From positions 1 through 64,000 of the IMG/VR virus record IMGVR_UViG_3300007513_002396: a stretch of 64,000 nt of DNA; one strand, 5' to 3'. The position numbers and the translations under genes are program-made. How positions within the stretch are numbered: position 1 is the first letter of the stretch; every line of letters begins with the position of its first letter. Origin of the DNA: a virus. Of this stretch, positions 3,419 through 37,288 are shown piece after piece. The notes beneath the pieces are model-generated. The model was not told where the DNA came from. It made no database searches and saw only the letters and a program-made list of their open reading frames with translations.

Positions 3419-3554
3419 CCATCCTCCACTTTTTAACTATAGAAAAAAAATGCATTTCCTGTATGTACATTTAGTCTACGGTGATTAATTTTTATCTGTT
3501 CCCATGATATGGGACGCTAAGACCTAAGAATGACCAGTGGAGGTACAAAAAAAA

Positions 3555-4010
3555 ATGAGTCTTTTTCCTATTACTCGTATGAGTATTCTTAATCCTATTT
3601 CTGATTTTGATCATATTTTTGACACGTTGATGGACAGTAATTACCGCCTATCACCGCGCACTTATACTAACGTTACGGAGCCTGTTTCAACAGTTCCGCG
3701 TGCAAATATTCTTGAAGAGAAGAATGGTTTCGCAATCGAACTAGCTGCACCTGGCTTTTCTCGTGGAGACTTCTCGATTGAAGTCAATGAAAGCACTTTG
3801 ACTGTCTCGGTTTCTTCTGAAGATGGTCCAGAGTATGCTGAAAAGCTAAAGAGTCGTGAATATAGCTACACTTCGTTTACTCGAAGTTGGAATCTTCCAG
3901 AAAACGTCAGTGTTAACATGATTGATGCGCGCTATGAAGCGGGTATTCTAATTGTCAATATTCCCGTTGAGATGAAGACTGCTAAGAAGCTTCAGATTGA
4001 AGTACAGTAA
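3555..4010 (+). CDS. small heat shock protein, Hsp20/alpha-crystallin family
   Basis: A 151-residue ATP-independent holdase. The alpha-crystallin domain spans about residues 46-150: it opens with VPRANILEEKNGFAIEL, has the A-P-G-F turn, the RSWNLPENV strand near 113, and the conserved G-I-L-x-V-x-I-P near the C-terminus. The N-terminal arm carries FDHIFDTLMDS, typical of phage and bacterial Hsp20. I chose ATG 3555 because GGAGG (3539-3543) sits at normal spacing; a GTG at 3537 would be inside that site. Hsp20 genes are common in T4-like marine phages, where roles in scaffolding or capsid folding have been proposed. A terminator follows at 4036. Confidence 0.93.
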   Translation: MSLFPITRMSILNPISDFDHIFDTLMDSNYRLSPRTYTNVTEPVSTVPRANILEEKNGFAIELAAPGFSRGDFSIEVNESTLTVSVSSEDGPEYAEKLKSREYSYTSFTRSWNLPENVSVNMIDARYEAGILIVNIPVEMKTAKKLQIEVQ

Positions 4011-4336: not shown

Positions 4337-4647
4337 AAAGAATAAATGAAGACGGAATAGGGAGTAATTACCACACTCTTGACCCACACTCTATCGATTT
4401 TTTTCATGATGAACGTGTTGAAGTAGAATTATTCCCGTCAGCATGGGGAAAATATTCAGTCCAGATTTCGTGCCCAGACCTGAATTACACTTCAGGCTTA
4501 CGCAATTATCAAACCGAAGAAGAAGCCAATAATTTTGCGCGAAATGAATATACTCAACTTATAACGAAGCTAGACAATCAACAAAACTTGGAAGAACAGC
4601 TTTTATTGCGCGTTCTCTGTCGTCTACAAAGAAGCTCTAACTGCTAA
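4333..4647 (+). CDS. hypothetical protein
   Basis: A 104-residue protein of unknown function, translationally coupled to the 58-residue gene upstream. A beta-rich middle (RVEVELFPSAWGKYSVQI) is followed by a conserved-looking Y-Q-T-E-E-E-A-N-N-F-A motif and a C-terminal helix, a pattern common in small phage proteins that wrap one sheet with a terminal helix. The last 24 bases overlap the end of the convergent protease gene. Confidence 0.6.
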   Translation: MKRINEDGIGSNYHTLDPHSIDFFHDERVEVELFPSAWGKYSVQISCPDLNYTSGLRNYQTEEEANNFARNEYTQLITKLDNQQNLEEQLLLRVLCRLQRSSNC

Positions 4648-5430
4648 GACGAAATTCTGTAATGCTGGGGTTGTACACCCGATTGTAAATTCATCGAATG
4701 AAATAGCTGCACCACTAATAATGGAGATAATTTCTCCATGCTCGTTTAGAATTGGGGAACCACTGCTACCTGGCGCAGCTGGAATAGTGAAAATATAAAT
4801 ATCGGAAACCTGTCCTGTGAAGTATCCGTCAAATACAGGAACCGCTAATGGAACCGCTAGCGCCCTGGGCGATGACATCGTATACACTTCTTCGTGAAGT
4901 GTCGGGTCACTGTCAGAAACCTCAAGTCCGGGCCCGAGGTGTATGTCCGCTATTAGTACGCAAAGGTCGTTGGTGGAGTCCACTGCTAGAATGGTTCCAA
5001 AACCCTCTCTACCAAACCCAGACTCCAGATGCATTTTGTACTGTATCCCGAAGTTTTCCGTGACTGGAGTCCCATTTCCGGGGGCACTGCAAACATGACC
5101 AGCTGTCAACACCAGCGAGGACCCCTTGTGCTGCCCGATTATTACCCCTGACCCTGTGGCGATCGTCTCTGCTGTTGGGAAAGATTGAGGCGCGCAATTA
5201 ACCTCATCATCTCCACAGACTACTTCATAAAATTGAATGTCTTGAGTGACCATCACAAATGATTCTATTGGAAACTTATCATTGGCTGTTTGGATTGTTG
5301 ATGGGGTTGAAATACGAGCAAACCCCGCGGCTAAGATAATGTTCAAGATGGTCAGTACGCCAACAGCGATGTATAGCATCGTACGAAAAGATGGTATGAT
5401 TTTCTTAATATATTGTCTCATATTTTCCAA
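4624..5430 (-). CDS. membrane-anchored trypsin-like (S1/HtrA-type) serine protease
   Basis: A 268-residue protease. One N-terminal membrane segment (about residues 16-36) is followed by an exported chymotrypsin-fold domain with a full triad: His112 in LTAGHVC, an Asp in the loop AVDSTNDLCVL (Asp151 or Asp155), and Ser223 in PGSSGSPI (family pattern G-x-S-G-G/S-P). There is no PDZ domain, so it is shorter than DegP/HtrA. The cysteines (72, 79, 114, 157 and others) could form disulfides in the periplasm. It lies on the minus strand, convergent with its upstream neighbour, like the vWA lipoprotein at 2504. A phage-coded anchored periplasmic protease could trim envelope proteins or block secondary infection; this is inference. 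Confidence 0.87.
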   Translation of the reverse strand: MENMRQYIKKIIPSFRTMLYIAVGVLTILNIILAAGFARISTPSTIQTANDKFPIESFVMVTQDIQFYEVVCGDDEVNCAPQSFPTAETIATGSGVIIGQHKGSSLVLTAGHVCSAPGNGTPVTENFGIQYKMHLESGFGREGFGTILAVDSTNDLCVLIADIHLGPGLEVSDSDPTLHEEVYTMSSPRALAVPLAVPVFDGYFTGQVSDIYIFTIPAAPGSSGSPILNEHGEIISIISGAAISFDEFTIGCTTPALQNFVLAVRASL

Positions 5431-8898: not shown

Positions 8899-8927
8899 AT
8901 TAGAGAACTAGATGCTAAGGATGAATG

Positions 8928-10109
8928 ATGTCAATTTTCCAAAGACATAAAACGGTCGCTGATCGCTCCGCTGGGGACCGTGCGAGGCATCGAAAGAAAA
9001 TCGAGAGAGCCATCAAAGATGGCATCTATAATATTGTTGCTGAAGAATCGATTATTGGGAAAGAGGGAAAGAAAAAATTTCGTATTCCTGTACGAGGAAT
9101 TAAAGAGTATCGATTTGTATACGGTGATAACGGTTCAAGAAGAGTAGGCTCTGCTCAAGGGAAAGATGTTAAGCGCGGGCAGGTGATTGGCAAAAAAGAA
9201 GAAAAAGGGCAAGGGCAAGGAAATCAGGCTGGTCAAGAAAAGGGAGAAGAGTATTACGAGGTAGAGCTTACGCTTGATCAACTTGCAGAATATCTTTTTA
9301 AAGATCTAAAGCTCCCTAATTTTGAAAAGAAAAAGAACACTAATGTCACATCTAAAAAAATAAAAAGACACGGGTATAGAACAAAGGGAATTCGGCCGAG
9401 GCTTGATAAAAAGAAGACAGTGATTGAAAAGCTAAAAAGAAAGAACAAGCGAAAGCTGATCATGTCACAACCTGAGTTAAATGAGGATGTTGACGAAACA
9501 AATGAATTTCCTTTTAATGAGAAAGATTTACGATATCGTCACTACAAGGTTCATGAAAAGAAAACGTCTAGTGCCGTTATATTCTTTTTAATGGACATTT
9601 CTGGATCTATGACAAGACAAAAGAAGTTTTTAGCAAGAAGCTTTTTCTTTTTGTTATACCATTTTATAAGGGCAAGGTATGACCAAGTGGACCTGGTGTT
9701 TATTGCTCACGATGTTGAGGCTCATGAAGTAACAGAAGACCAATTTTTTGGACGTGGATCATCGGGTGGAACATTGGTTTCTAGCGCATTAACAATGACT
9801 GAGGAGATTATTTCAAAAAGATATCACCCAAATAGCTGGAACATCTATGCATTTCAATGCTCTGACGGTGACAACTGGCCGACCGATAATGAAAGAGCAA
9901 TCGAACTAGCAAAGAAAATAGTTCAAAAAGCACAATTCTTTGGGTATTGTCAGATCGAGCCCAGTGAAGAAAGAGCTAGCTTCATCCGTGAAAATTCTTT
10001 ATCAGAAATATACGCACCGTTGATAGGTCCAAACTTTAAGGTAGCAGAGGTTTCTAGCAAGGAGCATATCTGGCCAGCTTTTAGATCATTCTTTGGGGGT
10101 GAATTATGA
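8928..10109 (+). CDS. yeaH: YeaH/YhbH family (UPF0229) vWA protein
   Basis: A 393-residue protein. It has the Arg-rich N-terminus of the UPF0229 family (D-R-S-A-G-D-R-x-R-H near 13-22), a charged Gly/Gln/Lys middle, and a C-terminal vWA-like domain with the MIDAS motif DISGS (Asp224, Ser226, Ser228 from the first Met) and downstream GRGSSGGT and F-Q-C-S-D-G-D-N-W-P. E. coli YeaH is about 427 residues. In bacteria, genes of this family travel with PrkA/YeaG kinase and SpoVR/YcgB, and here the three are contiguous and overlapping. Two adjacent ATGs (8925, 8928) are possible; TAAGGA at 8916-8921 favours the second. Confidence 0.93.
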   Translation: MSIFQRHKTVADRSAGDRARHRKKIERAIKDGIYNIVAEESIIGKEGKKKFRIPVRGIKEYRFVYGDNGSRRVGSAQGKDVKRGQVIGKKEEKGQGQGNQAGQEKGEEYYEVELTLDQLAEYLFKDLKLPNFEKKKNTNVTSKKIKRHGYRTKGIRPRLDKKKTVIEKLKRKNKRKLIMSQPELNEDVDETNEFPFNEKDLRYRHYKVHEKKTSSAVIFFLMDISGSMTRQKKFLARSFFFLLYHFIRARYDQVDLVFIAHDVEAHEVTEDQFFGRGSSGGTLVSSALTMTEEIISKRYHPNSWNIYAFQCSDGDNWPTDNERAIELAKKIVQKAQFFGYCQIEPSEERASFIRENSLSEIYAPLIGPNFKVAEVSSKEHIWPAFRSFFGGEL

Positions 10110-11413
10110 GCTCAAATTTTCTAAGCATGCTTGAAGAGTGGGACGAAAAAATTATCAAACTAGCTGAAGGACATGGTTTGGACTGGTATCCAATCCTGTA
10201 CGAAACGTGTGATTACTACGAGATGATTGGAAATATGGCATATCACGGAATGCCCACACATTACCGTCATTGGAGCTTTGGAAAATCTTTCGAGCGTACG
10301 CACGCTATGTATAATGCCGGCCTTGAGGGATTGCCCTATGAGTTAATCATTAACAGCAACCCATCAATAGCTTACCTCATGGAAGAAAACCCATTTTATC
10401 TACAAGTCCTTATCATGTGTCATTGCGTTGGCCATTCAGATTTTTTCAAAAATAATATAACATTTGCAAACACTCATGCTGATAATGTGCTATTGAGGAT
10501 GCGAAATGCGAAGAGGTTTGTCGATGGTCTTATCGAGGACCCAAGCATCGGCGTGAAGAAAGTAGAAAATATTCTAGATGCCGCGCATGCTTTGTCACTC
10601 CAAATTCCTCGTCGTTATAGAATGTATGATTCCCAGAAGAATCAAAAGAAGGCTCTTATTTTGGACATCAAGCAGGGAAAATATGAAGATGATTTTCCTC
10701 CGGATCCACGGGCGATTCCTGTTAGCCCAGAGCCTAATATTTTGGCATTCCTTGCAGAGTGTAGTCCTGTCCTTGATGATTGGGAACGTGAATTACTGTA
10801 CTTCGCTTTAGAAGACGCAGAGTATTTTATGCCACAGATTAGAACAAAAATAATGAATGAGGGGTGGGCTTCTTACTGGCATTTTAGAATGATGCATGAG
10901 CTTGAGCTTCCCGACTCAATGCACCTTCCTTTTTTAAAAATGCACAATGAAGTCGTCAGACCTCATCTTGGGAGTATCAACCCATATCACCTTGGATTCC
11001 ACCTTTTTAGAAAAATTGAAGAGCGCCACGGACTAGAAGAATGTTTTATTGCTAGAGAGTCGCTCAATGATGAATCATTTATCAGACAGTATCTTACCGA
11101 AGAAGATTGTGTTGATCTAAACCTATTTTCGTTTGGTTTGGACAAGAAAGAATTCGTGATTGAAGATGTGTCTGACAACGAGGGGTGGAAATCAGTAAAA
11201 CAAAACCTAATCAAACAGGTTTCTGCTAATAATATTCCATCAATCGTAGTGGAAGGTGTAGACGAAGCGAATATTCTAACTTTAAGGCATGAACATGATG
11301 GACGTGATTTAGAATTAGAATACGCGGAATCTGTAGTCGAACACATTACGACGTTGTGGGGAGATGTTGTTAGACTTGAAACAATTATTGAAGATGAACC
11401 ATTCGAGATTTAA
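10106..11413 (+). CDS. spoVR: SpoVR/YcgB family protein
   Basis: A 435-residue SpoVR-family protein (E. coli YcgB about 510 residues). Diagnostic stretches are GLDWYPILYETCDYYEMIG, the G-M-P-T-H-Y-R-H-W-S-F-G-K region near residues 49-60, the C-H-C-V-G-H-S-D-F-F-K-N-N segment, and WASYWHFRMMHE. Histidine-rich conserved patches suggest metal binding, but the biochemical role of SpoVR is not established: it is needed for the spore cortex in Bacillus and linked to stationary phase in enterobacteria. The start overlaps YeaH by 4 bases; PrkA follows after 13 bases. The C-terminal third is shorter and more divergent. Confidence 0.95.
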   Translation: MSSNFLSMLEEWDEKIIKLAEGHGLDWYPILYETCDYYEMIGNMAYHGMPTHYRHWSFGKSFERTHAMYNAGLEGLPYELIINSNPSIAYLMEENPFYLQVLIMCHCVGHSDFFKNNITFANTHADNVLLRMRNAKRFVDGLIEDPSIGVKKVENILDAAHALSLQIPRRYRMYDSQKNQKKALILDIKQGKYEDDFPPDPRAIPVSPEPNILAFLAECSPVLDDWERELLYFALEDAEYFMPQIRTKIMNEGWASYWHFRMMHELELPDSMHLPFLKMHNEVVRPHLGSINPYHLGFHLFRKIEERHGLEECFIARESLNDESFIRQYLTEEDCVDLNLFSFGLDKKEFVIEDVSDNEGWKSVKQNLIKQVSANNIPSIVVEGVDEANILTLRHEHDGRDLELEYAESVVEHITTLWGDVVRLETIIEDEPFEI

Positions 11414-11426
11414 GACGGAGTAATCG

Positions 11427-13355
11427 ATGCCAAAGAGCAAGTATCTTGACATTATAAACAGTCAAAGAAAAAAGAAGACCTCAAAAAAGTTTGAGGGTAC
11501 TTTTTTGGATTATCTTACGTTAGTGGAGAAAGACCCCACCTTAGCTGATCATGCGCACAAAAGATTGTACGATGTTATTTCAGCAGAGGGAATTTCTACG
11601 CTTGATGATGATGACCCAAGAAAGCATAAGTTGTTTAATAGCGAAAGTGTGAAAGTGTATGACTATTTCTCAGAAGAATTCTTTGGAATGGAAAATACTA
11701 TTTCAAAGTTAATGAGGTTCCTTCGCTCTGCATCCTTAAAGGGCGAAGAGAGTCGACAGGTTCTTTTGTTGATGGGCCCTGTAGGAGCTGGAAAGTCTGC
11801 ACTAACTGAACATATCAAGTCAAGTCTTGATGGTGTACAGTATTACCACTTGAAAGATGATCCCCAGCGAGGCGATCCACTTCAGCTTATTCCCAGATCA
11901 CTGAGAAAGAAGTTCAGCAAGCTACTCAAGGTGGCCATCGATGGTGATATTTCTCCTATAGCACGTCACCTTTTATTTGAGACGTATGAAAAGGCTTATG
12001 AGTCATTTGAAGTCGTAGAGACTACATTTTCTCAGCGTGCTCGTCGAGGGATTGCAACTGTACCACCAATGGACGCGAATAGTCAAGACGTATCAGTGCT
12101 TATTGGTTCAGAAGATATATCAAAGCTTGACAAATATTCTGAGGATGATCCTCGGGCCCTGTCATTAAACGGAGCATTCAACGTTGGTAACAGAGGTATT
12201 GTCGAACTTGTGGAGGTCTTTAAAAACGAAATTGAGTTTCTCCATACAATCATCACTGCGACACAGGAGAAGAGGATTCCAGCCCCTGGAAAGCATGATA
12301 TGCTTCACTTCGATGGTGTTATCTTAGCGCACTGTAACGAATCAGAGTGGAACCGTTTTCAAAGTGAGCATACCAACGAAGCAATTTTAGATCGTGTTGT
12401 TAAAATTGAAGTACCATATGTTTTAGAACTTGAACAAGAAATAAAGATTTATGAAAAGATCTTAGGAAGGTCCAACTTTGATTCTCATATCGCTCCTCAC
12501 ACTCTTCGAATTGCGTCGATGTTTTCAATCCTAAGTCGTCTCCATGCGAGCCAAAAGTGCGATCTTCTCACAAAGATGAAAATTTATAATGGGGAAGATG
12601 TTGTAGAGAAGGGAAGAGTAAAGAAAATTGACATTAGAGATCTCCGGGATGAAGCTCCAAGAGAGGGTATGCAAGGAATTTCAACCAGGTTTATCATGAA
12701 GGCGGTTGATAATGCCTTAAGCGATTCAGACAAGGATTTCATAACTCCCATTTCGATGCTTGACTCTCTAATAAAGCAAGTAAAAGATCAAATCGTTGAT
12801 TTAGATTTTCAGAACCATTGTCTAGACTTGATTAGAAACACAGTACGAGATGAATATCTTCGTATGCTCGAAAATGAAATAGCAAAAGCGTTTATTACAG
12901 CCTACGAAGAACAGGCACAAGCAGTATTCGAAAACTATCTTGACAATGCCGAGGCATTCACCACAAGCTCAAAAATGAAAGACAGAATTACAAAAGAAGA
13001 AATGCAACCGGATGAAACGTTTATGAGAGCGATTGAAGGTACGATCGGTGTAAGTAGCTCGGGCAGAGAGGGGTTTAGGGCTGACGTGACAGCTTATATG
13101 TTCTCTAAGATGCGTAGAGGTGAAAATGTTGATTATACTTCTTATGAGCCTCTAAAAGAAGCTATCGAAACATACCTCATCACATCTGTGAAGGATCTGG
13201 CTAGAATCGTTACAAAGACGAAAACCAGAGATGATGAGCAGAAACAAAAGTACTCAAGCATGGTACAAACACTTATGGACGAATATGGTTATACACCGGA
13301 GTCAGCAGAAGAAATACTGGTCTTCGCGAGTAATAATCTATGGAGAGATAGCTGA
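11427..13355 (+). CDS. prkA: PrkA/YeaG-type serine protein kinase (AAA+)
   Basis: A 642-residue PrkA family protein, close to the usual 630-645. An N-terminal AAA+ domain carries Walker A GPVGAGKS (117-124), preceded by EEFFGMENTI, a PrkA hallmark; family segments LIPRSLRKKF, then ALSLNGAFNVGNRGIVEL, and HCNESEWNRF follow. The C-terminal half holds the PrkA kinase-like region (R-E-G-M-Q-G-I-S-T-R-F near 415). In bacteria PrkA/YeaG is induced by starvation and phosphorylates or proteolyses a few targets. It forms a conserved module with YeaH and SpoVR, complete here. Its stop overlaps the next ATG by one base. Confidence 0.96.
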   Translation: MPKSKYLDIINSQRKKKTSKKFEGTFLDYLTLVEKDPTLADHAHKRLYDVISAEGISTLDDDDPRKHKLFNSESVKVYDYFSEEFFGMENTISKLMRFLRSASLKGEESRQVLLLMGPVGAGKSALTEHIKSSLDGVQYYHLKDDPQRGDPLQLIPRSLRKKFSKLLKVAIDGDISPIARHLLFETYEKAYESFEVVETTFSQRARRGIATVPPMDANSQDVSVLIGSEDISKLDKYSEDDPRALSLNGAFNVGNRGIVELVEVFKNEIEFLHTIITATQEKRIPAPGKHDMLHFDGVILAHCNESEWNRFQSEHTNEAILDRVVKIEVPYVLELEQEIKIYEKILGRSNFDSHIAPHTLRIASMFSILSRLHASQKCDLLTKMKIYNGEDVVEKGRVKKIDIRDLRDEAPREGMQGISTRFIMKAVDNALSDSDKDFITPISMLDSLIKQVKDQIVDLDFQNHCLDLIRNTVRDEYLRMLENEIAKAFITAYEEQAQAVFENYLDNAEAFTTSSKMKDRITKEEMQPDETFMRAIEGTIGVSSSGREGFRADVTAYMFSKMRRGENVDYTSYEPLKEAIETYLITSVKDLARIVTKTKTRDDEQKQKYSSMVQTLMDEYGYTPESAEEILVFASNNLWRDS

Positions 13356-13609
13356 TGTTAAGATTTGGATTTAGCGAAGCGTTGCTTATGTTTGCTGGAA
13401 TTGCTTTATGGCATAACCAAATGTTTGCAATAATCGCATTTTGTATGGCTTGCTTTGTTGCATTCGCAAGATTTTCGCTAGAGTGGTCGCTAAAGTCTAA
13501 AGAAACCGAAGCGAAGGTGCAGGCCTCAAAGCTATTAAATGAGCAAGTTCAAGAAGTCGGTGATGTACTTGGGACTATGTTCGGTAAAAAGAAATCCACG
13601 ATGCACTGA
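13355..13609 (+). CDS. small membrane protein after PrkA
   Basis: An 84-residue protein with two adjacent hydrophobic segments (about residues 6-20 and 23-41), then an acidic/basic helical tail (about 45-84) with coiled-coil character. It starts at the last base of the PrkA stop, so translation is probably coupled. The topology suggests a membrane hairpin with a cytoplasmic tail. Position suggests it may anchor or regulate the PrkA module or the chaperonin-like protein that follows, but the function is unknown. Confidence 0.65.
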   Translation: MLRFGFSEALLMFAGIALWHNQMFAIIAFCMACFVAFARFSLEWSLKSKETEAKVQASKLLNEQVQEVGDVLGTMFGKKKSTMH

Positions 13610-13617
13610 GATGTACA

Positions 13618-14949
13618 ATGAGACACTACGCCTCAGTATACTCAGGTGACGAAGCAAAAAAAATAACTCGGGACGCTCGACAGGCTATACGTGATGTAAT
13701 TCAAAGCTTGCAATCTTGGGAAAGCTCCATGATAGTTGGGAAAAGGCTTTATACCTTCGGTTGGCCTGATTCTTTTCGACTCTTGATAGAGGGGCTTGAT
13801 AATTGTCCTTTAGTGTATAGAAACCTCGTTCTTAATTCAGCAGAGGCCGTTTATCGACGATGTCCATTAGCGGTATCGCTTTATCTTATCACTTTGGAAA
13901 AAATGCTAGCAGGCCGACTTGCTGATGCTGCTCAGTTACAAGAGACAATAGATCAGCTGGTGATTAATCGAAGAAGGATATCGTCTAAGGAAGCAAAAAG
14001 CGCTTGGCGAAAGACAATACATGATGACTTTACTCGCGAAATATTTGAAGATTTATCATCTGCTGTCGATAAGACTGGAGCGCTCGGAACAATAGAGGTC
14101 AAAGGAGGCAGATATTCTAATGTTGAAATATACGAAGGCATTTCTGTTGCTGCTAAGCTAGCGCCGGCTTTTCAATCTCAAGTTGCAGGAATAATTCACT
14201 TAACAGACTGTAAGGTTGTGATTGTTGATGGAGCAATTCTTGACATTAGTGAATTAAATAGATTGCTTGTTTACGCTAACGAGAGTAAATCAAGCATTGC
14301 AATTTTTGCTTCGCAATTCTCAGATGATATATTAAATACCCTGATCGTTAATTGGAACAACGGACGTCTCAAGGCAGTTCCAATAATCTTTGAAAGTACC
14401 CTGAACGATCTTAATCAACCTGGAGATGTTGCAACAGTCGTAGGAGGAAGGTTAATATCAAAAGATTGTGAATATTCCATAACACTCCTTAACGAGGAAG
14501 AGTTACCCACTATCAAAAGCATAACTGTGAACAATATTTCGAAAAAATGTGATCTAATTTTAGATTCTGATGGTTTGTCTAGGGCATTTTTTCTAAGAAA
14601 TGAAATTCAAAAAAAGCGTGAAAAAGAAAAGATAGAAGATGTCAAGAATATCCTGAGCGCAAGACTAGCGAAACTAACAAGTAGAAAAACTATTATAACG
14701 ATTAAATGCGATATTGAAGAATCTGGAATTGTTAAAGATAGAATTTCCGACTTATTTTCTTTTATAAAATGTTGTGCAAATGAGAGCATAGTTTCTGGAG
14801 CTTCAATCTATTCAGCGGTAGAACAACAAGACACAAGCGGTCTTCCAGCTTTCTTACCCGCTTTTTCTGCAAAAATTGCCATTTTTAAAGCGATCGCAGA
14901 TGCTGAGCAGATAAACAAAATTGGAGCGCTAATACTGATGGATTATTGA
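13618..14949 (+). CDS. divergent chaperonin (GroEL/Cpn60-like), ATP site partly lost
   Basis: A 443-residue protein (GroEL about 548) that aligns by eye with GroEL from the intermediate domain onward. AVDKTGALGTIEVKGGR (149-165) matches the AMDKVGKEGVITVE region. An apical-domain pattern covers about 170-345: YEGISVAAKLAPAF, I-F-A-S-x-x-S-D-D-I-L-N-T-L-I-V-N (229-245), and G-R-L-K-A-V. RLAKLTS (349-355) and VKDRISDLF (372-380) follow, with Asp378 at the position of GroEL Asp398. The N-terminal equatorial region is shortened: the GDGTTTA motif is replaced by an RRCPLAVS-type stretch near 81, and the later GGG is IVSGAS. ATP use is therefore doubtful. It may be a substrate-specific or ring-modifying paralogue. 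Confidence 0.78.
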   Translation: MRHYASVYSGDEAKKITRDARQAIRDVIQSLQSWESSMIVGKRLYTFGWPDSFRLLIEGLDNCPLVYRNLVLNSAEAVYRRCPLAVSLYLITLEKMLAGRLADAAQLQETIDQLVINRRRISSKEAKSAWRKTIHDDFTREIFEDLSSAVDKTGALGTIEVKGGRYSNVEIYEGISVAAKLAPAFQSQVAGIIHLTDCKVVIVDGAILDISELNRLLVYANESKSSIAIFASQFSDDILNTLIVNWNNGRLKAVPIIFESTLNDLNQPGDVATVVGGRLISKDCEYSITLLNEEELPTIKSITVNNISKKCDLILDSDGLSRAFFLRNEIQKKREKEKIEDVKNILSARLAKLTSRKTIITIKCDIEESGIVKDRISDLFSFIKCCANESIVSGASIYSAVEQQDTSGLPAFLPAFSAKIAIFKAIADAEQINKIGALILMDY

Positions 14950-15771: not shown

Positions 15772-16028
15772 AAACTATTCAGGGTAAATTAGAAAAACAA
15801 AAACAGACAAGGTGGCTGAATGAAACCAGACAATGTCGGGAGATTGTCCAAGAAATTTTATCATTTGGTGTGAATCAAGACCAGATAAAAAATGTTATAA
15901 AGTTGCTCGCACTTGAGCTTGAGGATGTGGAAATAATGAAAGCAATTTCACAAATTTTAATAGAAAATGTTAACGAGCAAGTGACTACCGTTAATATTCT
16001 TAAACCAGGAGGAAAAACAGATGAGTGA
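15768..16028 (+). CDS. small helical hypothetical protein
   Basis: An 86-residue helical protein of unknown function. The N-terminus is basic (KLEKQKQTRW); a middle segment with REIVQEILSFGVNQDQI could form a short helical bundle; the C-terminus is acidic, then ends in a Gly/Lys tail. It overlaps both neighbours by a few bases in a compact four-gene string ending at the terminator. Confidence 0.5.
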   Translation: MKTIQGKLEKQKQTRWLNETRQCREIVQEILSFGVNQDQIKNVIKLLALELEDVEIMKAISQILIENVNEQVTTVNILKPGGKTDE

Positions 16029-16218
16029 TTCAAATAGTATTCTTGAGGGGTGGGAAAGCTTGAAGGAGCTTGTCAATTCCCTAGAGCTTGATATTCATAA
16101 GAACGCGAATGGAAACAAATCTGCCGGAGTACGTGCAAGAAGGGGTTTGCGTAAATTAAAGAATGACGCAAGTTCCTTAGTAAAATTGACACTAACCGCG
16201 GAAAAAAGTGAAAGTTAA
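16021..16218 (+). CDS. histone H1-like (Hc1-type) small protein
   Basis: A 65-residue protein. The pattern LKELVNSLELDIHKNANGNK followed by S-A-G-V-R-A-R-R-G-L-R-K-L-K resembles the N-terminal domain of bacterial histone H1-like (Hc1) proteins: an acidic helix, a G-N-K-x-A-G-x-R-x-R-K turn, then a basic helix leading to L-x-K-L. The Lys/Pro-rich DNA-binding tail of full Hc1 is missing. It may bind DNA or a nucleoid partner during packaging or host nucleoid remodelling; this is inferred from the pattern only. The preceding gene overlaps it by 8 bases; a strong terminator follows 38 bases after its stop. Confidence 0.5.
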   Translation: MSDSNSILEGWESLKELVNSLELDIHKNANGNKSAGVRARRGLRKLKNDASSLVKLTLTAEKSES

Positions 16219-16256: not shown

Positions 16257-16281
16257 AAAAAGGGGGGCTTACCCCCTTTTT
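16257..16281. terminator. bidirectional Rho-independent terminator
   Basis: A 10-bp perfect stem, AAAAAGGGGG / CCCCCTTTTT, with a 5-base loop (GCTTA). The arms supply T runs in both directions. It lies between the plus-strand gene ending at 16218 and the minus-strand gene ending at 16305, so it can end both transcripts. Confidence 0.95.
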
Positions 16282-16691: not shown

Positions 16692-17999
16692 TTGAAAGAC
16701 GATAGAAAGAAGTTTATTTTAGACACAAGCGTCCTGCTGTATGATAAAAAAGCTATCCATTCCTTCCCAGGAAACGATGTTATTATTCCCTTACAAGTTA
16801 TGGATGAGCTGGATCGATTTAAAGAAAAGCCAGGCATCGTTGGAGAGTCAGCCCGATATATCAACCGCTTTTTAGATGATCTACGAGCAGAAGGTCGCTT
16901 GGATAAAGGTGTAAACGTTCCACTCACCTATTCAGAAAATCAGACGATACGAATAACCCTTTGTGACGATCCTACACAACTCCCCAAAAGTCTCGCTCAT
17001 GATAGCGGAGACAATAGGATACTTGCGACATGCATGAGCGAGAGGTCTGTAGGGGACGGTGAGACCATTGTCGTGATTACTAAGGACATTAACCTAAGAG
17101 TTAAGTGCGATGCCCTTGGCATCCATTCTGAGGACTACTACAAGGACCATATAGAGGCGGGCCAGGTAGAATATGCTGGATGGCAAAAAAACATTGTATC
17201 TAAAGAAATAATCGACGAATTCTTTGTGAAAGGTAAAGTGTCCACCGCCGTTGATTTCTTTCCAAATGAGTTTGTGGTGCTTTGTGATGGAGGGAATTCT
17301 TCTGCCTTGACATTTCATCGTGCCGGATATCTCTACGCAATGAACAAGCGACCTGCTGAGCTTATGAGTTCATTTGAAGCAAAGAACAAAGAGCAAGCAT
17401 TCGCTGTGGAGGCACTTTTACGAGATGACATTCCTCTTGTAACGCTCACGGGATTAGCCGGCTCTGGCAAAACATATGTTACATTGATGGCTGGACTAGA
17501 TGGTGTGCAACAGGGGCGCTACAAAAGAATAGTAATAAGTCGATCAATCCAGCCAGTTGGAAAAGAACTTGGGTTTTTACCAGGTGATATGTCTGACAAA
17601 ATGCAGCCATGGTTAGCTCCTATCCTGGATAATTTCAGAACAATGCTAGCAGACAAAGACTACACATACTTTCAAATGATGAGAGACCGTGGGGAATTAG
17701 AGGTTGCACCGCTAGCGTACATAAGAGGAAGGACGTTTAACGATTCCTTTATCATTGTCGATGAAGCACAAAATGCGACCATACACGAATTAAAAACACT
17801 TATCACAAGAGTTGGTAAGGGATCAAAAATCGTTCTTCTTGGAGACACAGATCAAATTGATACGCCCTACATTAATAAATTAAGCAACGGATTATCAATC
17901 GTTGTCCACAAATTTAAGGATGAGAATGGTGCTGCACATATTAAGTTGGCAAAAGGACAGAGATCAAATATAGCTACTAGAGCTTCTGCTATCCTTTAA
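16692..17999 (+). CDS. phoH: PIN-PhoH protein (PhoH2-type RNase/ATPase)
   Basis: A 435-residue two-domain protein. The N-terminal PIN RNase domain (about 1-140) has Asp11 in FILDTSVLLYD, MDELDRF (Glu39/Asp41) and SGDNRILA, the acidic metal site. The C-terminal PhoH ATPase has Walker A GLAGSGKT (254-261), Walker B VDEAQN (356-361) and LLGDTDQIDTP. PhoH2 proteins couple RNA unwinding to RNA cleavage; PhoH genes are common in marine phages, sometimes phosphate-regulated, though no pho box is visible. Start TTG 16692 is supported by AAGGGAG (16680-16686) at ideal spacing; no in-frame ATG lies nearby. Confidence 0.95.
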   Translation: MKDDRKKFILDTSVLLYDKKAIHSFPGNDVIIPLQVMDELDRFKEKPGIVGESARYINRFLDDLRAEGRLDKGVNVPLTYSENQTIRITLCDDPTQLPKSLAHDSGDNRILATCMSERSVGDGETIVVITKDINLRVKCDALGIHSEDYYKDHIEAGQVEYAGWQKNIVSKEIIDEFFVKGKVSTAVDFFPNEFVVLCDGGNSSALTFHRAGYLYAMNKRPAELMSSFEAKNKEQAFAVEALLRDDIPLVTLTGLAGSGKTYVTLMAGLDGVQQGRYKRIVISRSIQPVGKELGFLPGDMSDKMQPWLAPILDNFRTMLADKDYTYFQMMRDRGELEVAPLAYIRGRTFNDSFIIVDEAQNATIHELKTLITRVGKGSKIVLLGDTDQIDTPYINKLSNGLSIVVHKFKDENGAAHIKLAKGQRSNIATRASAIL

Positions 18000-18034
18000 C
18001 TTTAGATCTCCATATTTAGTTCGGAGGTCCACCA

Positions 18035-18388
18035 ATGTCTAATGCGAGAACTAAAAAGTACAATAGAAATCGTTATCGAAAGGTCTACCAACCGGTTCGA
18101 GCGTTACCTAATTGGGGCATCCGGTCCGATAAAGAAGTAGTATTAGAGACCCTTCGAGTTCAATTCAACGGCGGTGATGAACGCACATTCGTGTTACTCG
18201 GCAGGTATAAGACACTTCCAGGAATCGTAGTGACCCCTGTCGGTGACCTTGCTGATGTGAATATATTCATTTCAGCGCTTTCTCTCGGTAGTGTTCCATA
18301 CGACGGAGGTAAAGAAGTATCCATTACTCTCAGCGCTAGTACCGCATTTGAGGGTGAAGTAATCGTACAGGCAATGATGATAGCATGA
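18035..18388 (+). CDS. small virion/fibre-associated protein
   Basis: A 117-residue protein with a basic N-terminus (about 1-25, Arg/Asn/Tyr-rich) and a beta-rich remainder (alternating strands such as RTFVLLGRYKTLPGIVVTP). CGGAGGTCC lies at normal spacing. It overlaps the LamG gene that follows by 4 bases, and that gene opens with a region of similar style (LTPYGINANLNTF), so the two may share a small beta domain, pointing to a virion role. No family recognised. Confidence 0.55.
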   Translation: MSNARTKKYNRNRYRKVYQPVRALPNWGIRSDKEVVLETLRVQFNGGDERTFVLLGRYKTLPGIVVTPVGDLADVNIFISALSLGSVPYDGGKEVSITLSASTAFEGEVIVQAMMIA

Positions 18389-19611
18389 TATTCAATCAAA
18401 GTGAGCATGAGCTGCAATACGGAATCATTGAGATAAAAGATGGTAAAGATAGCTTTGTCTTAGCTGTATCTGGGTCAAAAGAATTTGAACCTTCAATTAT
18501 TTTGACTCCCTATGGTATTAATGCCAACTTAAATACATTCGTGATGGGTCCTTGTAAGTGGGGGTCGCTTGTATTAGAGCCAGATGATGGACAAAATGTA
18601 TACGATCTAAACCAGACATGGCGAGCCAAATCAAATCTAGCAGAATATGACGCTAAAGCAAATCTCAAGGTATGGTGGAGACTAAATGAAAAACCGCTCA
18701 GCTTGGTGGACTTGGTCATCGCGGATTCTTCTGGAAATGGAGTTAACTCAATAGGCCAAAACCAAAATAACCAAAAGCCGGATAGGTCGTTGTCAACTCC
18801 ATCAACGTACATAGCTACAACAACTTTAGATTTCGAAAATACCGTCGGTGGCGCAGCCCATGGCAACGTAGCTTTTTTCAAGGCGAGTTATTGGAACAGT
18901 CTTGTTGGTGGAGAAGGTCCGACAACAAATGGTGGCACCTCAGGTCCTGGGAATTCGATGTCTATATCTTTTTGGTTTAGACCGTTGGACTGGACCGAGA
19001 ACAATGATGGCCAGATAATCTTTCTTGCTGGTGATAACGTCGGAGCAGGATCATTTCGGGGGGTCGTAATGTCTACTAACGGCAGCTCTTTTAAGGGTAT
19101 TCGTATCGGATGGAATGCTGGATTGCCGAAGGACAACTCATACGCTGGAACAAATTTTGCTGGCTCGTATAACGTTGCATTAAACACCTGGCATCATGCA
19201 GTCATAACAAGATCTGGGGCAGAATGGTCTGGTTCTGATTGGGTTGGTGGTAATCCTTACAAATTTTATCTAGACGGCGTCGAATACACAGATGTCACAT
19301 ATGCAGCAGTTGGAGGAGGTGGAATTAAACCTAATCCGATTGTAGAGGCAGGTTCTCCAAACGCTCGTCTCGGCTACAACAGCGTCCATGGATTCAGTGG
19401 CGATTTATCAGATTTTGCGATCTGGGATACAGAATTAACAGCTACACAAGTCGAGGCGCTATATGGTACGGCAGCGTCTGGTGTCGAAGATGCAGAAACA
19501 ATTAGAGCGAAGGGTGACGTCTGGTGGGCAGTCATAAAGAGATCCACAGATATCGGAGACGTTAACGTTCAATATCAGGCCATTGGGGCCTCTCCATTAA
19601 GGGTGAAGTAA
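18385..19611 (+). CDS. LamG/concanavalin-like domain virion protein
   Basis: A 408-residue protein. An N-terminal beta region (1-70) is followed by a LamG/concanavalin-A-like lectin domain (about 88-365): VWWRLNE, then DSSGNG, SMSISFWFRP, NTWHHAVITRSGAEW, KFYLDGV and GDLSDFAIWDTELTATQVEAL, the typical ordered LamG landmarks. Such domains bind glycans or proteins and occur on phage fibres and adhesins. The C-terminal 40 residues look like a small attachment domain. It starts the adhesin cluster and is followed at once by two giant fibre genes. Confidence 0.8.
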   Translation: MIFNQSEHELQYGIIEIKDGKDSFVLAVSGSKEFEPSIILTPYGINANLNTFVMGPCKWGSLVLEPDDGQNVYDLNQTWRAKSNLAEYDAKANLKVWWRLNEKPLSLVDLVIADSSGNGVNSIGQNQNNQKPDRSLSTPSTYIATTTLDFENTVGGAAHGNVAFFKASYWNSLVGGEGPTTNGGTSGPGNSMSISFWFRPLDWTENNDGQIIFLAGDNVGAGSFRGVVMSTNGSSFKGIRIGWNAGLPKDNSYAGTNFAGSYNVALNTWHHAVITRSGAEWSGSDWVGGNPYKFYLDGVEYTDVTYAAVGGGGIKPNPIVEAGSPNARLGYNSVHGFSGDLSDFAIWDTELTATQVEALYGTAASGVEDAETIRAKGDVWWAVIKRSTDIGDVNVQYQAIGASPLRVK

Positions 19612-19612
19612 A

Positions 19613-22600
19613 ATGGCAAAAGATTTTAGAAGTAATCAAATAAGAACAATAAAGCTTATCGGTTCCGGTGGAGTGAATATAACAAAGCCCTATCTGGGAC
19701 TGCTAATTTATAGTTCTTCTGCTGCAACAAATTATGATGGTGGTCATGAAGCAAAAATGCTACAAGACGTCGGCGATGACGTATGGATGTTTGTAAGCGG
19801 TTCTGCAAATACCACTGCATACATTGCAACACAGAAGCCCTCCGGAGGGTCCGTTCTTTTTGGTGGGGATGTCGTCGTAAGCGGAACGTTGTACGCTGAA
19901 AGACAGGTAATAGAAGTCGACTCAAGTGTTGACGGGGATCTTCTGGTTCCCAATTCAATAGCAGGCGGTATTAAGGGGATGTCCACTGCCGGTGGAAACT
20001 ATGCGAAGCTTCTTGTTGATCCTTTTACACAAAATCTTGGAAAAGTTGGACCCCAAGCCCAACAGAAAGATGGCACTGTCTCCTTTAATATAGTAGCAGG
20101 ACCCGGGGAAGGAAATGCATGGAGGTATGATGGCTCTCTAAAAGAAGACGTTTTCTTTCATGTTTCTGGAAGTCGAGGTGTAAGAGACACAAGACAAAGA
20201 GGCTTGGCTCTTTTTGATGGCGATCTCCATACGTCTGGTAACCTCAGTATGTCACCGGACTCAGTATGGACCACAGACATTATATTAGACAATTCTACTA
20301 ACGACCCGCCAATATTTGCTCAACAAAATGGGTTCGGAAAACGCTGGACAGAAATTGCTGTCCAGCAGAAAGGTTTTGGTCAGTTTGATGTTGAGATAGC
20401 GAACTCTGGATCTGACGTTGATAGTAATTTAAAGTTCAAGACTAGAGCGGGTCATTCCGGGGAATACTCTATGGTATTTTCTGGATCAGGTGATCTAGGG
20501 CTGGATAGACCCTCTATGGGTCCTCGAAATCTTATATTGGACGGCGCGCGCCAAACACGTATTTCCTCAGAGTGGGATAGTGTTACTGATGGTATGCAGC
20601 TAACACTTGAAGGAGCAGCAGATGGTAATGCCTCCATAATCTTTAATAAGTCAAATATAACAGGTTCAGGTGGGTATTATCTAAAAGCGGGGAGCATTGC
20701 CGCCGGGATGGGGGGCCAGGCTCTTGGTTTCCAATTTACTGGTGGTGGCTCTGCTGGGACGACCACTGCGGGACTTTATTATAATAGGAGCGGGTTCGGG
20801 CTACAAAAGCACCCTATTCTTCAAGGCCCAAATGATGCGCTGGTTATGACGTCAGCAAATGCTGGTGAGAAAATGCACATCGGTGCTGCAAAGGTGGAGG
20901 TCTGGGGACTGGAGAATGGGATTGAAATCAATGCATCCCACCCAACCTGGATAGACCAGGTCGGCGGTCCGATTTTGATGAGGGCAACCGGTTCCCATGC
21001 CGACGGTGGTGGAGTTGATATATGGGGTGATGTTCGTATGCGAGACAGTTTAGAGATTGATGGCAATCTTACTGTCTGGGGCGATAAGATCATTGGTCAC
21101 GTAATATCAGCATCAATATCTGATCCACTGTTGCTACTAAACTCTGGTGCGGTATCCTCTGGTACACCAGGTCCTGGTGGCGGTATGAATCCATCAGGTG
21201 GCGGTATCGCCATCGCATCAGGATCTACGTACATCGATCAAGCGATGGTTTTTGGTAGATATGTCCATAATAGCATAAAGAACACTTTCTTTGCTGGAAG
21301 GATGGACGTTAAAAATGGCGATGAATTACGATTTGATGGCGCTGAACCTATCCGAATGCTCGCGGCGGGGTATCGCTTTACTGGTGAAAGTACACCCCAG
21401 GCAGAAACGAACTTTTTGTTAACTGGCTCTGGCGGGGTGACAATACTTTCTGGTAGTCGCTTCGCGCTTGAGTCTGGTAAACCATGGTTCTTTAGTGATA
21501 TAGGCACGAAAACAGGCGCAGCTCCTCCAGGCTCTTACTACATGGTCTATGATAATACAGACCCAAGCCCGGGAGTTCCTGATCTGCAACTGCATATTGG
21601 AACAGGTAGCTTTACGATAAACGCTGATCCCAGCACAGCTTCGCAATTATTTCTCGGGGCATCCAAACATACTTTATGGGAAGATGACCCGACTGGTTTT
21701 GGCGAGACAAAGTTTCTTACAGACAAACAGCTAATTGTTTCTTCATCTGATGGCTTGGTACTTTCGACGTCTAATAATGATCTCGTAGTGTCAGCTTCCG
21801 CACCTATCGGTCCCAATCCCGCCATAAGGGTGCGAGGCGGAAACGTCTTTGTTAACACAACAAATAATAATGGCAAGATCGAGATTACATCGAATAAGCA
21901 ACTTAAGTTATCTTCTTCAAACATAGACGGAAAAGTTCTCGTTACAGCAGGGGAAACCGCTGGATATGACGGTGGACAACTAGACTCAGCGCAGCTTTAT
22001 CTTTCAGGAGGTATTGTTGATCCCCTGGGATATAACGGCAGAATAGGTGCTGCGTTTGTAAACACTCCCATACTAGAATCAAAGTCCATTATAGAAACTT
22101 ATCCCGATATTAACTTCTTTGTTTCCGGTTCAATAGACAGTCGTCAGTCGACCCACCGCGGGGTAGGTGTATTCGGCGGGGACTTGGTCGTATCAGGTAC
22201 TGCAAAGGTGGGCGCGCTAGCGATCGATAACCTCGTCTTAGAAGGTGCCGCTGTTGGTCAGCCATTCATTAGATTCGGGTTAACAACCGATTCTCCAAAG
22301 GTGTATCATAACGCTGGGAACCTTACATTTTTTGATGACTATATTACGACCCCTGGATACACACTAACACAAATAGCTGCAAGAGGTGTTGAGTTAAACA
22401 ACAACATTTGGAAAAACACATATGCTGGTGGCGGCGGGGATTTTGGTAGCTATCTTGCTACAAGTGGTGCTGTATCGTTTGATTTTGACCAAAATTGGGC
22501 AGGTACACCAGATCCGTATGTTCCAAAGCGCACAAATAGCCCGGGATTCGGTGGTTCAGACGTATTCTTTATTATTAGTGGTTCGAAGGGTGGTAAAAGT

Positions 22601-23416
22601 GCTGAGCACGAAAGAAGCACGTCAGTCTTTCGTGGTGATCTTCTCACATCAGGAGCCATGTATTGGGCAAGAATATCAACAGCGATGGCCGCAGCGCAAG
22701 TGGTCGGACCCGATGCAGTCTCAGTTTACGCCAAAGATGTAAGTGGAGAGACAAGACTATTTTACAGAAATGAAGTTAACGAATTACCGTTAGGCGCAGG
22801 CGGTAGCCTGGACGATGCTTATGATACCCCAACTGGTGGCGGCTTAAAATCGACTGCCGCGGGAGCCGTTGTTGAAGTGGACGGCCGTCCGGTTCAATTA
22901 GAGGGAACAATCTCAAGTGGATCACCGGTTGTGTTAGTGACATCAGGGTCGGTGGCTCTTATTTCATCTGATAACAGCACTCCACCCAGCATAATTTGCG
23001 ATACAGATGATAAAGCGGGTGGTGTCGATTTAGAATTCAAAATAAACAAGACCGGACCGCTAATGACAAAAGTATTTTCGTTGTCAGGCGGATCCGCTAA
23101 TCTAGTTATGAACAACAATGCGTTATTAGCGTGGAATCAATCAGAGACTGAGGCGATTCTAAAATATAAAAATGATCCAGCTGCCAGCATATCTCACGGA
23201 ATAGGAACCAAACACTTCTTACCTGACGCTGACAATACCTATAATCTTGGAACACCAAACTTTCGTTGGGCAAACCTATATACCGGTGACCTCCACTTAA
23301 AGAATGAGCGTGGTAACTGGACCATACTTGAGGAAAGAGACTATCTATGTGTAATAAACAATATTACAGGGAAGAAATACAAGATGGCACTCGAGCCGTT
23401 GGAGGATGACGAATAA
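19613..23416 (+). CDS. large tail fibre protein with repeat modules
   Basis: A 1267-residue Gly/Ser/Asp-rich fibre protein, with short beta segments throughout, consistent with a trimeric beta-structured shaft. A module of form [VF]-F-[VI]-S-G-S ... [LV]-F-x-G-D-[LV]-x-x-S-G recurs at least four times (about DNA 19768, 20142, 22110, 22559). The C-terminus has DADNTYNLGTPNFRWANLYT and a closing N-W-T-I-L-E-E-R-D-Y-L segment, a pattern I associate with marine T4-like fibres. There is no enzymatic motif. Its start is 2 bases after the LamG gene; its stop overlaps the next ATG by one base. Confidence 0.85.
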   Translation: MAKDFRSNQIRTIKLIGSGGVNITKPYLGLLIYSSSAATNYDGGHEAKMLQDVGDDVWMFVSGSANTTAYIATQKPSGGSVLFGGDVVVSGTLYAERQVIEVDSSVDGDLLVPNSIAGGIKGMSTAGGNYAKLLVDPFTQNLGKVGPQAQQKDGTVSFNIVAGPGEGNAWRYDGSLKEDVFFHVSGSRGVRDTRQRGLALFDGDLHTSGNLSMSPDSVWTTDIILDNSTNDPPIFAQQNGFGKRWTEIAVQQKGFGQFDVEIANSGSDVDSNLKFKTRAGHSGEYSMVFSGSGDLGLDRPSMGPRNLILDGARQTRISSEWDSVTDGMQLTLEGAADGNASIIFNKSNITGSGGYYLKAGSIAAGMGGQALGFQFTGGGSAGTTTAGLYYNRSGFGLQKHPILQGPNDALVMTSANAGEKMHIGAAKVEVWGLENGIEINASHPTWIDQVGGPILMRATGSHADGGGVDIWGDVRMRDSLEIDGNLTVWGDKIIGHVISASISDPLLLLNSGAVSSGTPGPGGGMNPSGGGIAIASGSTYIDQAMVFGRYVHNSIKNTFFAGRMDVKNGDELRFDGAEPIRMLAAGYRFTGESTPQAETNFLLTGSGGVTILSGSRFALESGKPWFFSDIGTKTGAAPPGSYYMVYDNTDPSPGVPDLQLHIGTGSFTINADPSTASQLFLGASKHTLWEDDPTGFGETKFLTDKQLIVSSSDGLVLSTSNNDLVVSASAPIGPNPAIRVRGGNVFVNTTNNNGKIEITSNKQLKLSSSNIDGKVLVTAGETAGYDGGQLDSAQLYLSGGIVDPLGYNGRIGAAFVNTPILESKSIIETYPDINFFVSGSIDSRQSTHRGVGVFGGDLVVSGTAKVGALAIDNLVLEGAAVGQPFIRFGLTTDSPKVYHNAGNLTFFDDYITTPGYTLTQIAARGVELNNNIWKNTYAGGGGDFGSYLATSGAVSFDFDQNWAGTPDPYVPKRTNSPGFGGSDVFFIISGSKGGKSAEHERSTSVFRGDLLTSGAMYWARISTAMAAAQVVGPDAVSVYAKDVSGETRLFYRNEVNELPLGAGGSLDDAYDTPTGGGLKSTAAGAVVEVDGRPVQLEGTISSGSPVVLVTSGSVALISSDNSTPPSIICDTDDKAGGVDLEFKINKTGPLMTKVFSLSGGSANLVMNNNALLAWNQSETEAILKYKNDPAASISHGIGTKHFLPDADNTYNLGTPNFRWANLYTGDLHLKNERGNWTILEERDYLCVINNITGKKYKMALEPLEDDE
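19768..22668 (+). repeat. coding repeats in tail fibre (SGS...FxGDLxxSG module)
   Basis: Four diverged copies of a 30-40 residue unit, at about 19768-19904, 20142-20240, 22110-22206 and 22559-22668. Each has a hydrophobic strand ending in S-G-S, a variable Arg-rich loop (for instance SRGVRDTRQRG), then L-F-x-G-D-L and x-S-G. The two outer pairs are separated by about 1.9 kb of other fibre sequence. This looks like shaft evolution by duplication. Confidence 0.7.
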
Positions 23417-27480: not shown

Positions 27481-27667
27481 TGGTATAATAACTTAAATTA
27501 ATTAATTATTAAATTAATAAACAGGTTTTATCAGTATTTGGTTAACTGGGAAACTGAATTCAGAATTAATATACAACCTCTGTAAAATTTGTACACGCAA
27601 AAAACTGAACTTTCTTTTTCATATACAGCTGCTCACTAGAGGTTATTATTCCTTGTGAGGTAGCTGA
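27481..27667 (+). promoter_or_regulatory. longest intergenic gap, AT-rich, possible promoter region
   Basis: This 187-base gap separates the fibre operon from the glycan island. A hairpin CCACT-GTGGAT-AGTGG spans the fibre stop (27468-27483) and is followed by TATAAT (27484-27489), with TTGTAC 19 bases upstream, a suboptimal spacing. A second AT-only inverted repeat (ATTAATT...AATTAAT) follows at about 27500-27525 with no T run, so a terminator is not convincing. TTGTAC recurs at 27589. A start for the glycan operon in this gap is likely by position but not proven. Confidence 0.35.
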
Positions 27668-29617: not shown

Positions 29618-30365
29618 TATTGTTCTTCCTTGCTATAATGGTGAAGCGACTATCGAACGAGCTATTAAATCAATTGCTGCGCAAACATATCGCGATTTTG
29701 AGACTGTTTTTGTTGACAACAAATCAGATGACAGAACATTATCGATAATTGAGCGATATAGACAATCCGCGAATATTCGAATCGTAACTTGCGATACAGC
29801 AGGAATCGTTCCAGCGTTGAATACTGGAATATATCATAGCGATTCTTCTTTTGTTGCAAGACAAGATGACGATGACTATTGGTACCCAACGAAATTAGAA
29901 AAACAAATGCTGCATTTTGAAGAAAATCCCGCCACGTCTATTTTGGGTACACGAATTCGTCTTCTTGACGAAGAAGGTAAAGCTCAGGATTTAGGTACGT
30001 ATGGCCGACCAGTGAATTATCCTGTAGACGATCATACGATTCGATATATGCTTATTTTGGGTCAAAATCCGCTGTGTCATCCATCAGTGGTAATGCGTAG
30101 AGAGGTACCCCTTGTCGCTGGTGGATATAGCCAGCATTTTTTCTTGGCAGAAGACATGCATCTTTGGTTAAAGGCATTTCCGTTTTTTAAGTTCGCAAAT
30201 TTACCAGAGGTTTTGCTAGATTACACCCAGACGGTTCGTGAAGACTATGACCCTCGTGTAGTGAAGGATTTAGCAACTTTCTACTATAACCTCTATAAGT
30301 CACAGGGGATAATCGAAGGAGATCGTCCTGCGCTAGTCTATGATTGGGAAAGAGGAGTAAAGTGA
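29604..30365 (+). CDS. family 2 glycosyltransferase
   Basis: A 253-residue GT2 enzyme of GT-A fold. Motifs: VSIVLPCYNGEATIERAI near the start, FVDNKSDDRT (nucleotide contact), ARQDDDDYWYP (DxD-like metal site) and FFLAEDMHLW (catalytic E-D near the C-terminus). It is a clear paralogue of the gene at 32039 (shared HPSVVMR and "AEDLHLW" patterns) and more distantly of 32901. Transfers a sugar from a nucleotide donor to an unknown acceptor in the cytoplasm. The overlap with its neighbours shows a single operon. Confidence 0.92.
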   Translation: MPKVSIVLPCYNGEATIERAIKSIAAQTYRDFETVFVDNKSDDRTLSIIERYRQSANIRIVTCDTAGIVPALNTGIYHSDSSFVARQDDDDYWYPTKLEKQMLHFEENPATSILGTRIRLLDEEGKAQDLGTYGRPVNYPVDDHTIRYMLILGQNPLCHPSVVMRREVPLVAGGYSQHFFLAEDMHLWLKAFPFFKFANLPEVLLDYTQTVREDYDPRVVKDLATFYYNLYKSQGIIEGDRPALVYDWERGVK

Positions 30366-32034: not shown

Positions 32035-32038
32035 CATA

Positions 32039-32887: not shown

Positions 32888-32900
32888 CTTTGGAGAAAAA

Positions 32901-33611: not shown

Positions 33612-33616
33612 TTGAT

Positions 33617-35394: not shown

Positions 35395-35400
35395 GCGAAC

Positions 35401-35429
35401 TTGTACAGCTGCTATATTTTAAATAAAAT
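35401..35429 (+). promoter_or_regulatory. candidate sigma70-type promoter
   Basis: TTGTAC (35401-35406), 17 bases, TAAAAT (35424-35429), in a 64-base gap between two glycan genes. Match 4 of 6 and 5 of 6 to the E. coli consensus, ideal spacing, and a start expected around 35436 that leaves a 20-odd base leader. It may be an internal promoter of the island. The ribosome site before 35459 is weak. Confidence 0.4.
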
Positions 35430-35458
35430 GTTTAGAACATGTTATTCTGGGTTTAGTA

Positions 35459-36229: not shown

Positions 36230-36232
36230 TAT

Positions 36233-37285: not shown

Positions 37286-37288
37286 TAT

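Follow-up and report, generated by a model that had tools for sequence, protein, structure and literature searches.

A phage-borne YeaH-SpoVR-PrkA module with a chaperonin-like neighbour in an uncultured jumbo myophage lineage

Introduction

The PrkA, YeaH and SpoVR families are widespread in bacteria, where they serve in stress responses, and their biochemical job is debated, with kinase, protease and AAA+ remodeller all under discussion. Pairs of an AAA+ ATPase and a vWA protein work as chaperone systems. Purified PrkA of B. anthracis was reported to oligomerise with ATP; it was inactive as a kinase and had negligible activity as a protease (PMC13001217). For group 2.2 jumbo phages, pairs of a MoxR AAA+ ATPase and a vWA or vWA-metallopeptidase protein were proposed to act in virion assembly, by analogy with the Acidianus two-tailed virus (PMC7824862).

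Phage copies of the trio have already been annotated piecemeal. In Thermus phage records the genes are labelled 'serine kinase', 'SpoVR' and 'conserved bacterial protein', and in the Ralstonia jumbo phage RsoM2USA, SpoVR (ORF28) and PrkA (ORF30) lie two ORFs apart and have their best matches in Vibrio and Alcanivorax genes, with no discussion of a module (PMC8504454). A literature search, with most subscription journals outside its range, found no paper on the phage trio as one unit or on the chaperonin-like partner described below. Repeated retention of these families by phages offers tractable systems for finding their function, such as Lalka8 and phiYS40 on Thermus.

Source record and phage identity

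The window, meaning the whole 64,000-nt stretch analysed here, corresponds to bases 1-64000 of a 75,178-bp IMG/VR virus record. Contig IMGVR_UViG_3300007512_002515 (178,344 bp) is 100% identical to window positions 17734-37733 from the contig's first base (20 kb compared); the same phage continues in this contig, and its genome is at least ~196 kb. The contig shares the baseplate protein of the window and carries a gp23-type major capsid gene, as judged by a capsid match. A further phage contig of 254,743 bp (the 255-kb relative) is collinear with the entire 75,178-bp record, and its genes include those for a gp23-type capsid and a tail sheath. Baseplate-type genes are located at 52-55 kb of the window, in which PhoH and Hsp20 genes are also present. 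The virus is a jumbo myophage whose capsid is of the T4 gp23 type, and it belongs to an uncultured aquatic lineage; among named phages, Microcystis phage Mel-JY01 and the Flavobacterium phages immuto come closest in baseplate and capsid comparisons, at ~30% (baseplate) and ~47% (capsid) identity. Both the GC content of the trio (39.9% vs 41.8%) and its codon usage fall inside the range of the phage.

Because the phage carries several LPS-type sugar genes, including a heptose-adenylyltransferase-like gene and GtrB-like and other glycosyltransferases, there are hints that the host is perhaps Gram-negative and non-sporulating.

Genes of the trio

The earlier note, made by a model from the sequence, had described three full-length, overlapping genes of the YeaH, SpoVR and PrkA families carried by a phage. 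All three are full-length, adjacent and co-directional on the plus strand, with Pfam scores far over the cut-offs (E of 1e-114 or better for each main domain) and with coordinates within one codon of those first given. The YeaH/YhbH gene (DUF444, E=1.9e-114) occupies 8925..10109 and starts at one of two neighbouring ATGs, 8925 or 8928; the closest NCBIfam model is of the sporulation YhbH type, matched at 414 bits, under its 468-bit cut-off. The SpoVR/YcgB gene follows at 10106..11413 (SpoVR, E=1.1e-114; SpoVR_C, 4.8e-10), and the PrkA/YeaG gene at 11427..13355 encodes an AAA+ ATPase domain (AAA_PrkA, E=5.2e-131) and a PrkA C-terminal domain (7.4e-77). The described overlap is real for YeaH and SpoVR, which share 4 nt, but not for SpoVR and PrkA, which are 13 nt apart.

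The motifs that had been read from the sequence, namely the YeaH MIDAS DISGS, the PrkA blocks GPVGAGKS and EEFFGMEN and the SpoVR signature blocks, are all present. Broad family alignments show no variation at the catalytic positions. In the vWA-like YeaH the MIDAS is intact (DISGS; T283; D314), and D224/S226/S228/T283/D314 are invariant in 124 of 124 homologues. The Walker A residues G117/K123/S124 of PrkA are likewise unchanged in 143/143 homologues, the very divergent Thermus-phage proteins included, as are many further PrkA positions. Of the YeaG residues required in E. coli in vivo, K116 aligns with K123 of the window protein and K426 is conserved as K425, but R232, also required, aligns with Ser; in other phage PrkAs the K426 position is Asp. 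PrkA has a related solved structure (9xip, E 1e-86), and it matched the Pfam model AAA_PrkA and weakly AAA_16, with no match to the MoxR model (AAA_3).

For SpoVR, H106/H110/E252/E79 are invariant in all homologues aligned (118/118). Its AF2 model, which has a pLDDT of 84.6 but is poor over residues 50-61 and 74-85, gave no fold match in the PDB with E<=0.001, and the sole significant match in PDB and BFVD together was one viral protein of 617 aa, the same length as the phiLo SpoVR. A known peptidase fold was considered and set aside, as no PDB peptidase was matched with E<=0.001. From the invariant HxxxH and Glu, a candidate metal site may be drawn at H106-x3-H110 plus E252, and SpoVR would on that basis be a metal-dependent enzyme. 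Taken together, the intact genes and motifs suggest that the phage carries the PrkA-YeaH-SpoVR module in functional form.

Downstream genes and the chaperonin-like protein

The small hydrophobic protein and the chaperonin relative that had been noted after the trio are as described. The first gene (13355..13609, plus strand) overlaps PrkA by 1 nt and encodes a protein of 84 aa whose two hydrophobic stretches, to judge from the sequence, likely make a membrane hairpin; it had no family match in profile searches including Pfam, NCBIfam and PADLOC, and a small family occupies that position in 58/160 loci of the lineage. The second gene starts 8 nt further on (13618..14949, plus strand) and encodes a 443-aa GroEL-like protein with a chaperonin fold. 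Its AF2 model (pLDDT 90.5) had 457 PDB fold matches with E<=1e-3, and among the matches listed all 50 of 50 were chaperonins, with Foldseek E down to 1.9e-23 and query TM values reaching 0.73. The profile match covers the apical and intermediate regions. NCBIfam GroEL models scored far under their cut-off, the equatorial ATP motif GDGT(T) was found in none of 40 homologues, and GGG in 1/40.

A chaperonin-like profile match is present in 131 of the 150 loci with room downstream, mostly a short way after PrkA, with a median gap of 246 nt, which bears out the suggestion that the chaperonin relative extends the module; at two loci (L054 and L058) the match is to a canonical 544-aa GroEL 5' of the trio. 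These canonical genes are at L054:860-2494 and L058:385-2019, and the motif GDGTTT was read in L054. In jumbo phages, the proteins without GDGT form a fast-evolving chaperonin-fold family of ~370-480 aa, which may act independently of ATP or have a role other than folding.

An Hsp20 gene (3537-4010) and a trypsin-like serine protease gene (4624-5430, on the minus strand, opposite to the trio) are both located 5' of the trio. A 264-aa minus-strand gene is present at about the position of the protease in 79/160 loci of the lineage.

Conservation in the phage lineage

Scans of viral contigs yielded 152 relatives with PrkA and 231 with SpoVR, and the best 80 of each were taken; the resulting 160 loci include many contigs found in both scans and are not 160 independent phages. 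In line with the co-occurrence proposed earlier as a check, the trio is complete in 77/80 of the best PrkA loci, the other three beginning at a contig edge, and in 80/80 of the best SpoVR loci, and the order YeaH-SpoVR-PrkA is kept without exception in all 160.

Of the 55 proteins matched with the 255-kb relative, PrkA ranks 1st in identity (86%), SpoVR 5th and YeaH 14th, and the fast-evolving chaperonin-like protein comes 43rd. For PrkA, dN is about 0.1 and dS is saturated; as synonymous sites are saturated in most genes, only dN and identity ranks were used and not dN/dS. Mirror-tree correlations are only mildly higher for pairs within the trio (r=0.81-0.84) than for pairs with other genes (0.54-0.80). 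Among capsid-bearing contigs PrkA was found in only 3/11, but all 11 are fragments, and the absence of the trio from contigs with the baseplate is mostly explicable by truncation. These data are suggestive of a core-like trio that has long been resident in the jumbo-myophage lineage of the window. In this lineage ~25-56 kb separate the trio from the baseplate genes, and in the 255-kb relative it is >100 kb from the capsid gene.

Relationship to bacterial operons and other phage trios

The bacterial prkA-yhbH(yeaH)-spoVR operon of the Clostridia/Myxococcota type shares all three families, the intact motifs and the tight linkage with the window, and its PrkA proteins are the closest cellular relatives of the window PrkA, mostly at 52-60% identity. 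It differs from the lineage of the window in gene order, which is rotated in the phages, and in the extra chaperonin-like gene of the latter. Among cellular loci holding all three genes the order is PrkA-YeaH-SpoVR in 56/60. One trio filed as cellular, on a contig of a Sulfobacillus benefaciens MAG, shows the rotated order YeaH-SpoVR-PrkA and has a long branch.

In the PrkA tree (143 rows, a quick method with SH-aLRT support only), the group of the window with all its viral relatives adjoins Clostridia/Myxococcota PrkA. The single cellular row inside this group is the 305,838-bp contig NHDW01000006.1, which had been assigned to a Methylococcaceae MAG; that MAG includes a gp23-type capsid gene, and the contig is probably phage DNA binned with bacterial DNA. 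Other phage PrkAs are of a proteobacterial type (more than one entry), stand beside planctomycete PrkA or form the long branch of the Thermus phages, the exact placement of which is uncertain. As the trees of SpoVR and YeaH recover the same groups in outline, the trio appears to have moved as a unit, in outline. This comparison with bacterial trios, which the earlier note had also proposed, indicates at least four separate entries of the trio into phages. In three of these phage lineages, gp23-type capsid genes share records with the trios. Enterobacter phage LAU1 was also considered, but its yeaG and yeaH genes are the first in that record (MN688132.1:1-3308) and are most likely host DNA flanking a prophage.

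The rotated order is common to the lineage of the window and the Thermus phages (phiYS40/TMA, phiLo, MN1, Lalka8/27), although the PrkA proteins of the latter are on a separate branch with only 27-30% identity to that of the window, and no Cpn-like gene was found in the Thermus flanks examined. In Lalka8 and Lalka27b the genes are arranged on one strand as portal, minor head, vWA, SpoVR, AAA, two small genes and TerL, and in TMA the trio ends ~1.2 kb from TerL. Huge phages of the LR745206/LR756502 and LR756511 types have the trio too, with all three families identified in LR745206, LR756504 and LR756511; their PrkAs are of the proteobacterial or planctomycete type, the gene order is the cellular one, and the loci are without the Cpn-like gene. 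In LR756502 the SpoVR match is ~240 kb from PrkA. A fixed neighbourhood of structural genes in all phages was considered and rejected, since trios of other lineages adjoin genes for DNA polymerase III, Thy1, ClpP, an exonuclease and tail-fibre-like proteins.

The trio and the MoxR-vWA pairs both combine an AAA+ ATPase with a vWA partner and a candidate hydrolase. Unlike the MoxR systems, PrkA represents its own AAA family, and SpoVR, which is not fused to the vWA partner, matched no peptidase fold; because of the missing AAA_3 match the likeness is treated as an analogy. Replacement of MoxR-vWA pairs by the trio was also rejected, as AAA_3-like genes are weakly present in many of the same records and mutual exclusion did not emerge.

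Possible functions of the trio

We favour, with a probability of about 0.42, the explanation that the trio is an AAA+/vWA/SpoVR machine remodelling phage proteins, possibly in virion assembly, and rank it over control of host starvation or dormancy, because of the data on PrkA as an AAA+ protein, the AAA+/vWA precedent and the location of the Lalka and TMA trios near head or TerL genes. PrkA would form an ATP-driven AAA+ ring, YeaH would be its MIDAS/vWA adaptor recruiting substrates, and SpoVR would act as a metal-dependent enzyme on the presented substrate, with the chaperonin-like protein assisting without an ATP cycle of the GroEL kind. Substrates of the machine would most likely be phage proteins made in bulk, during virion assembly or processing, rather than host regulators of sporulation or starvation. 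That at least four unrelated virus lineages acquired the trio suggests that it serves the virus's own needs, and its completeness, its conservation ranks, the chaperonin-like partner and the island with Hsp20 and the trypsin-like protease also speak for such a machine. Against it stand the restriction of the structural-gene neighbourhood to Thermus phages and the distance of the window trio from baseplate and capsid genes, as well as the lack of a solved-fold match for SpoVR and of AAA_3 for PrkA, and the fast evolution of the chaperonin-like protein.

The main rival, which we regard as possible, is that the trio steers a starvation, stationary-phase or dormancy programme of the host, as YeaG/YeaH do in E. 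coli under nitrogen starvation. A yeaG mutation swept in a T7-resistant E. coli population (PMC10044975), and among the sporulation-type AMGs of an oxygen-minimum-zone virome, viral spoVR ranked first in abundance and was read as promoting host persistence (PMC8940887). The conserved counterparts of YeaG K116 and K426 fit host control as well, but the Ser at R232 and the Asp at K426 in other phages do not, and the core-like conservation and the portal/terminase adjacency in some Thermus phages would be unexpected for an optional host-modulating gene. Since PhoH is common to many phages (relatives in 3,621 phage records), its presence beside the trio does not speak for a starvation role. The earlier note had proposed that the phage controls host stress or dormancy; this view has only E. 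coli and Bacillus phenotypes as its source and is not supported in that form: remodelling or assembly fits at least as well, given the core-like conservation, the several acquisitions, the head and packaging placement in Lalka phages and the chaperonin-like partner. The reading of viral spoVR as a sporulation AMG (PMC8940887) is also called into question, as the gene travels here with PrkA and YeaH and the host is hinted to be non-sporulating.

An unlikely third explanation is that the trio protects the infection, by resisting host defence or toxins or by clearing damaged or aggregated proteins during a long jumbo-phage cycle, independently of virion assembly. An AAA+ machine within a proteostasis-like island of Hsp20, trypsin-like protease and chaperonin-like protein would suit this role, but defence-related AAA models match only weakly (DolB E=1.3e-4, IetA E=0.005), as expected for any AAA ATPase; PADLOC gave no defence-system assignment. 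Functionless hitch-hiking of recently acquired bacterial genes is very improbable: the families are bacterial in origin and their nearest cellular relatives are intact operons, but this view is contradicted by PrkA being the best conserved of the matched proteins of the contig, and also disfavoured by the several independent acquisitions and the phage-like GC and codon usage. Joining of a host contig by misassembly, for which nothing was found in its favour, can practically be dismissed in view of the viral loci of the same order, the whole-record collinearity with the 255-kb relative and the identical second contig. Neither this artefact nor a loss of active-site residues, both of which the earlier note had named as possible objections, is borne out.

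In its boldest and rather doubtful form, the remodelling explanation would mean that in this lineage a bacterial stress operon became a four-part core machine (PrkA, YeaH, SpoVR and a chaperonin without an ATP site) that builds or processes phage particles, that at least four phage lineages reached its three-gene part independently, and that the viral spoVR 'sporulation genes' of the ocean are parts of it.

Other features of the window

A possible intrinsic terminator with a 10-bp stem (16257..16281, plus strand) lies 3' of a co-directional gene run; it is a consensus match only, and the number of such sites is not above that in shuffled sequences (8 found, 8.5 expected). A promoter scan likewise gave no excess over shuffles. 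Positions 27668-47904 form a ~20-kb block with many glycosyltransferase, epimerase, reductase and other sugar-metabolism genes, which suggests surface glycan synthesis or modification. At 16021-16218, a 65-aa protein matches the histone H1-like Hc1 profile (E=1.2e-9), and its gene stands beside PhoH in most loci.
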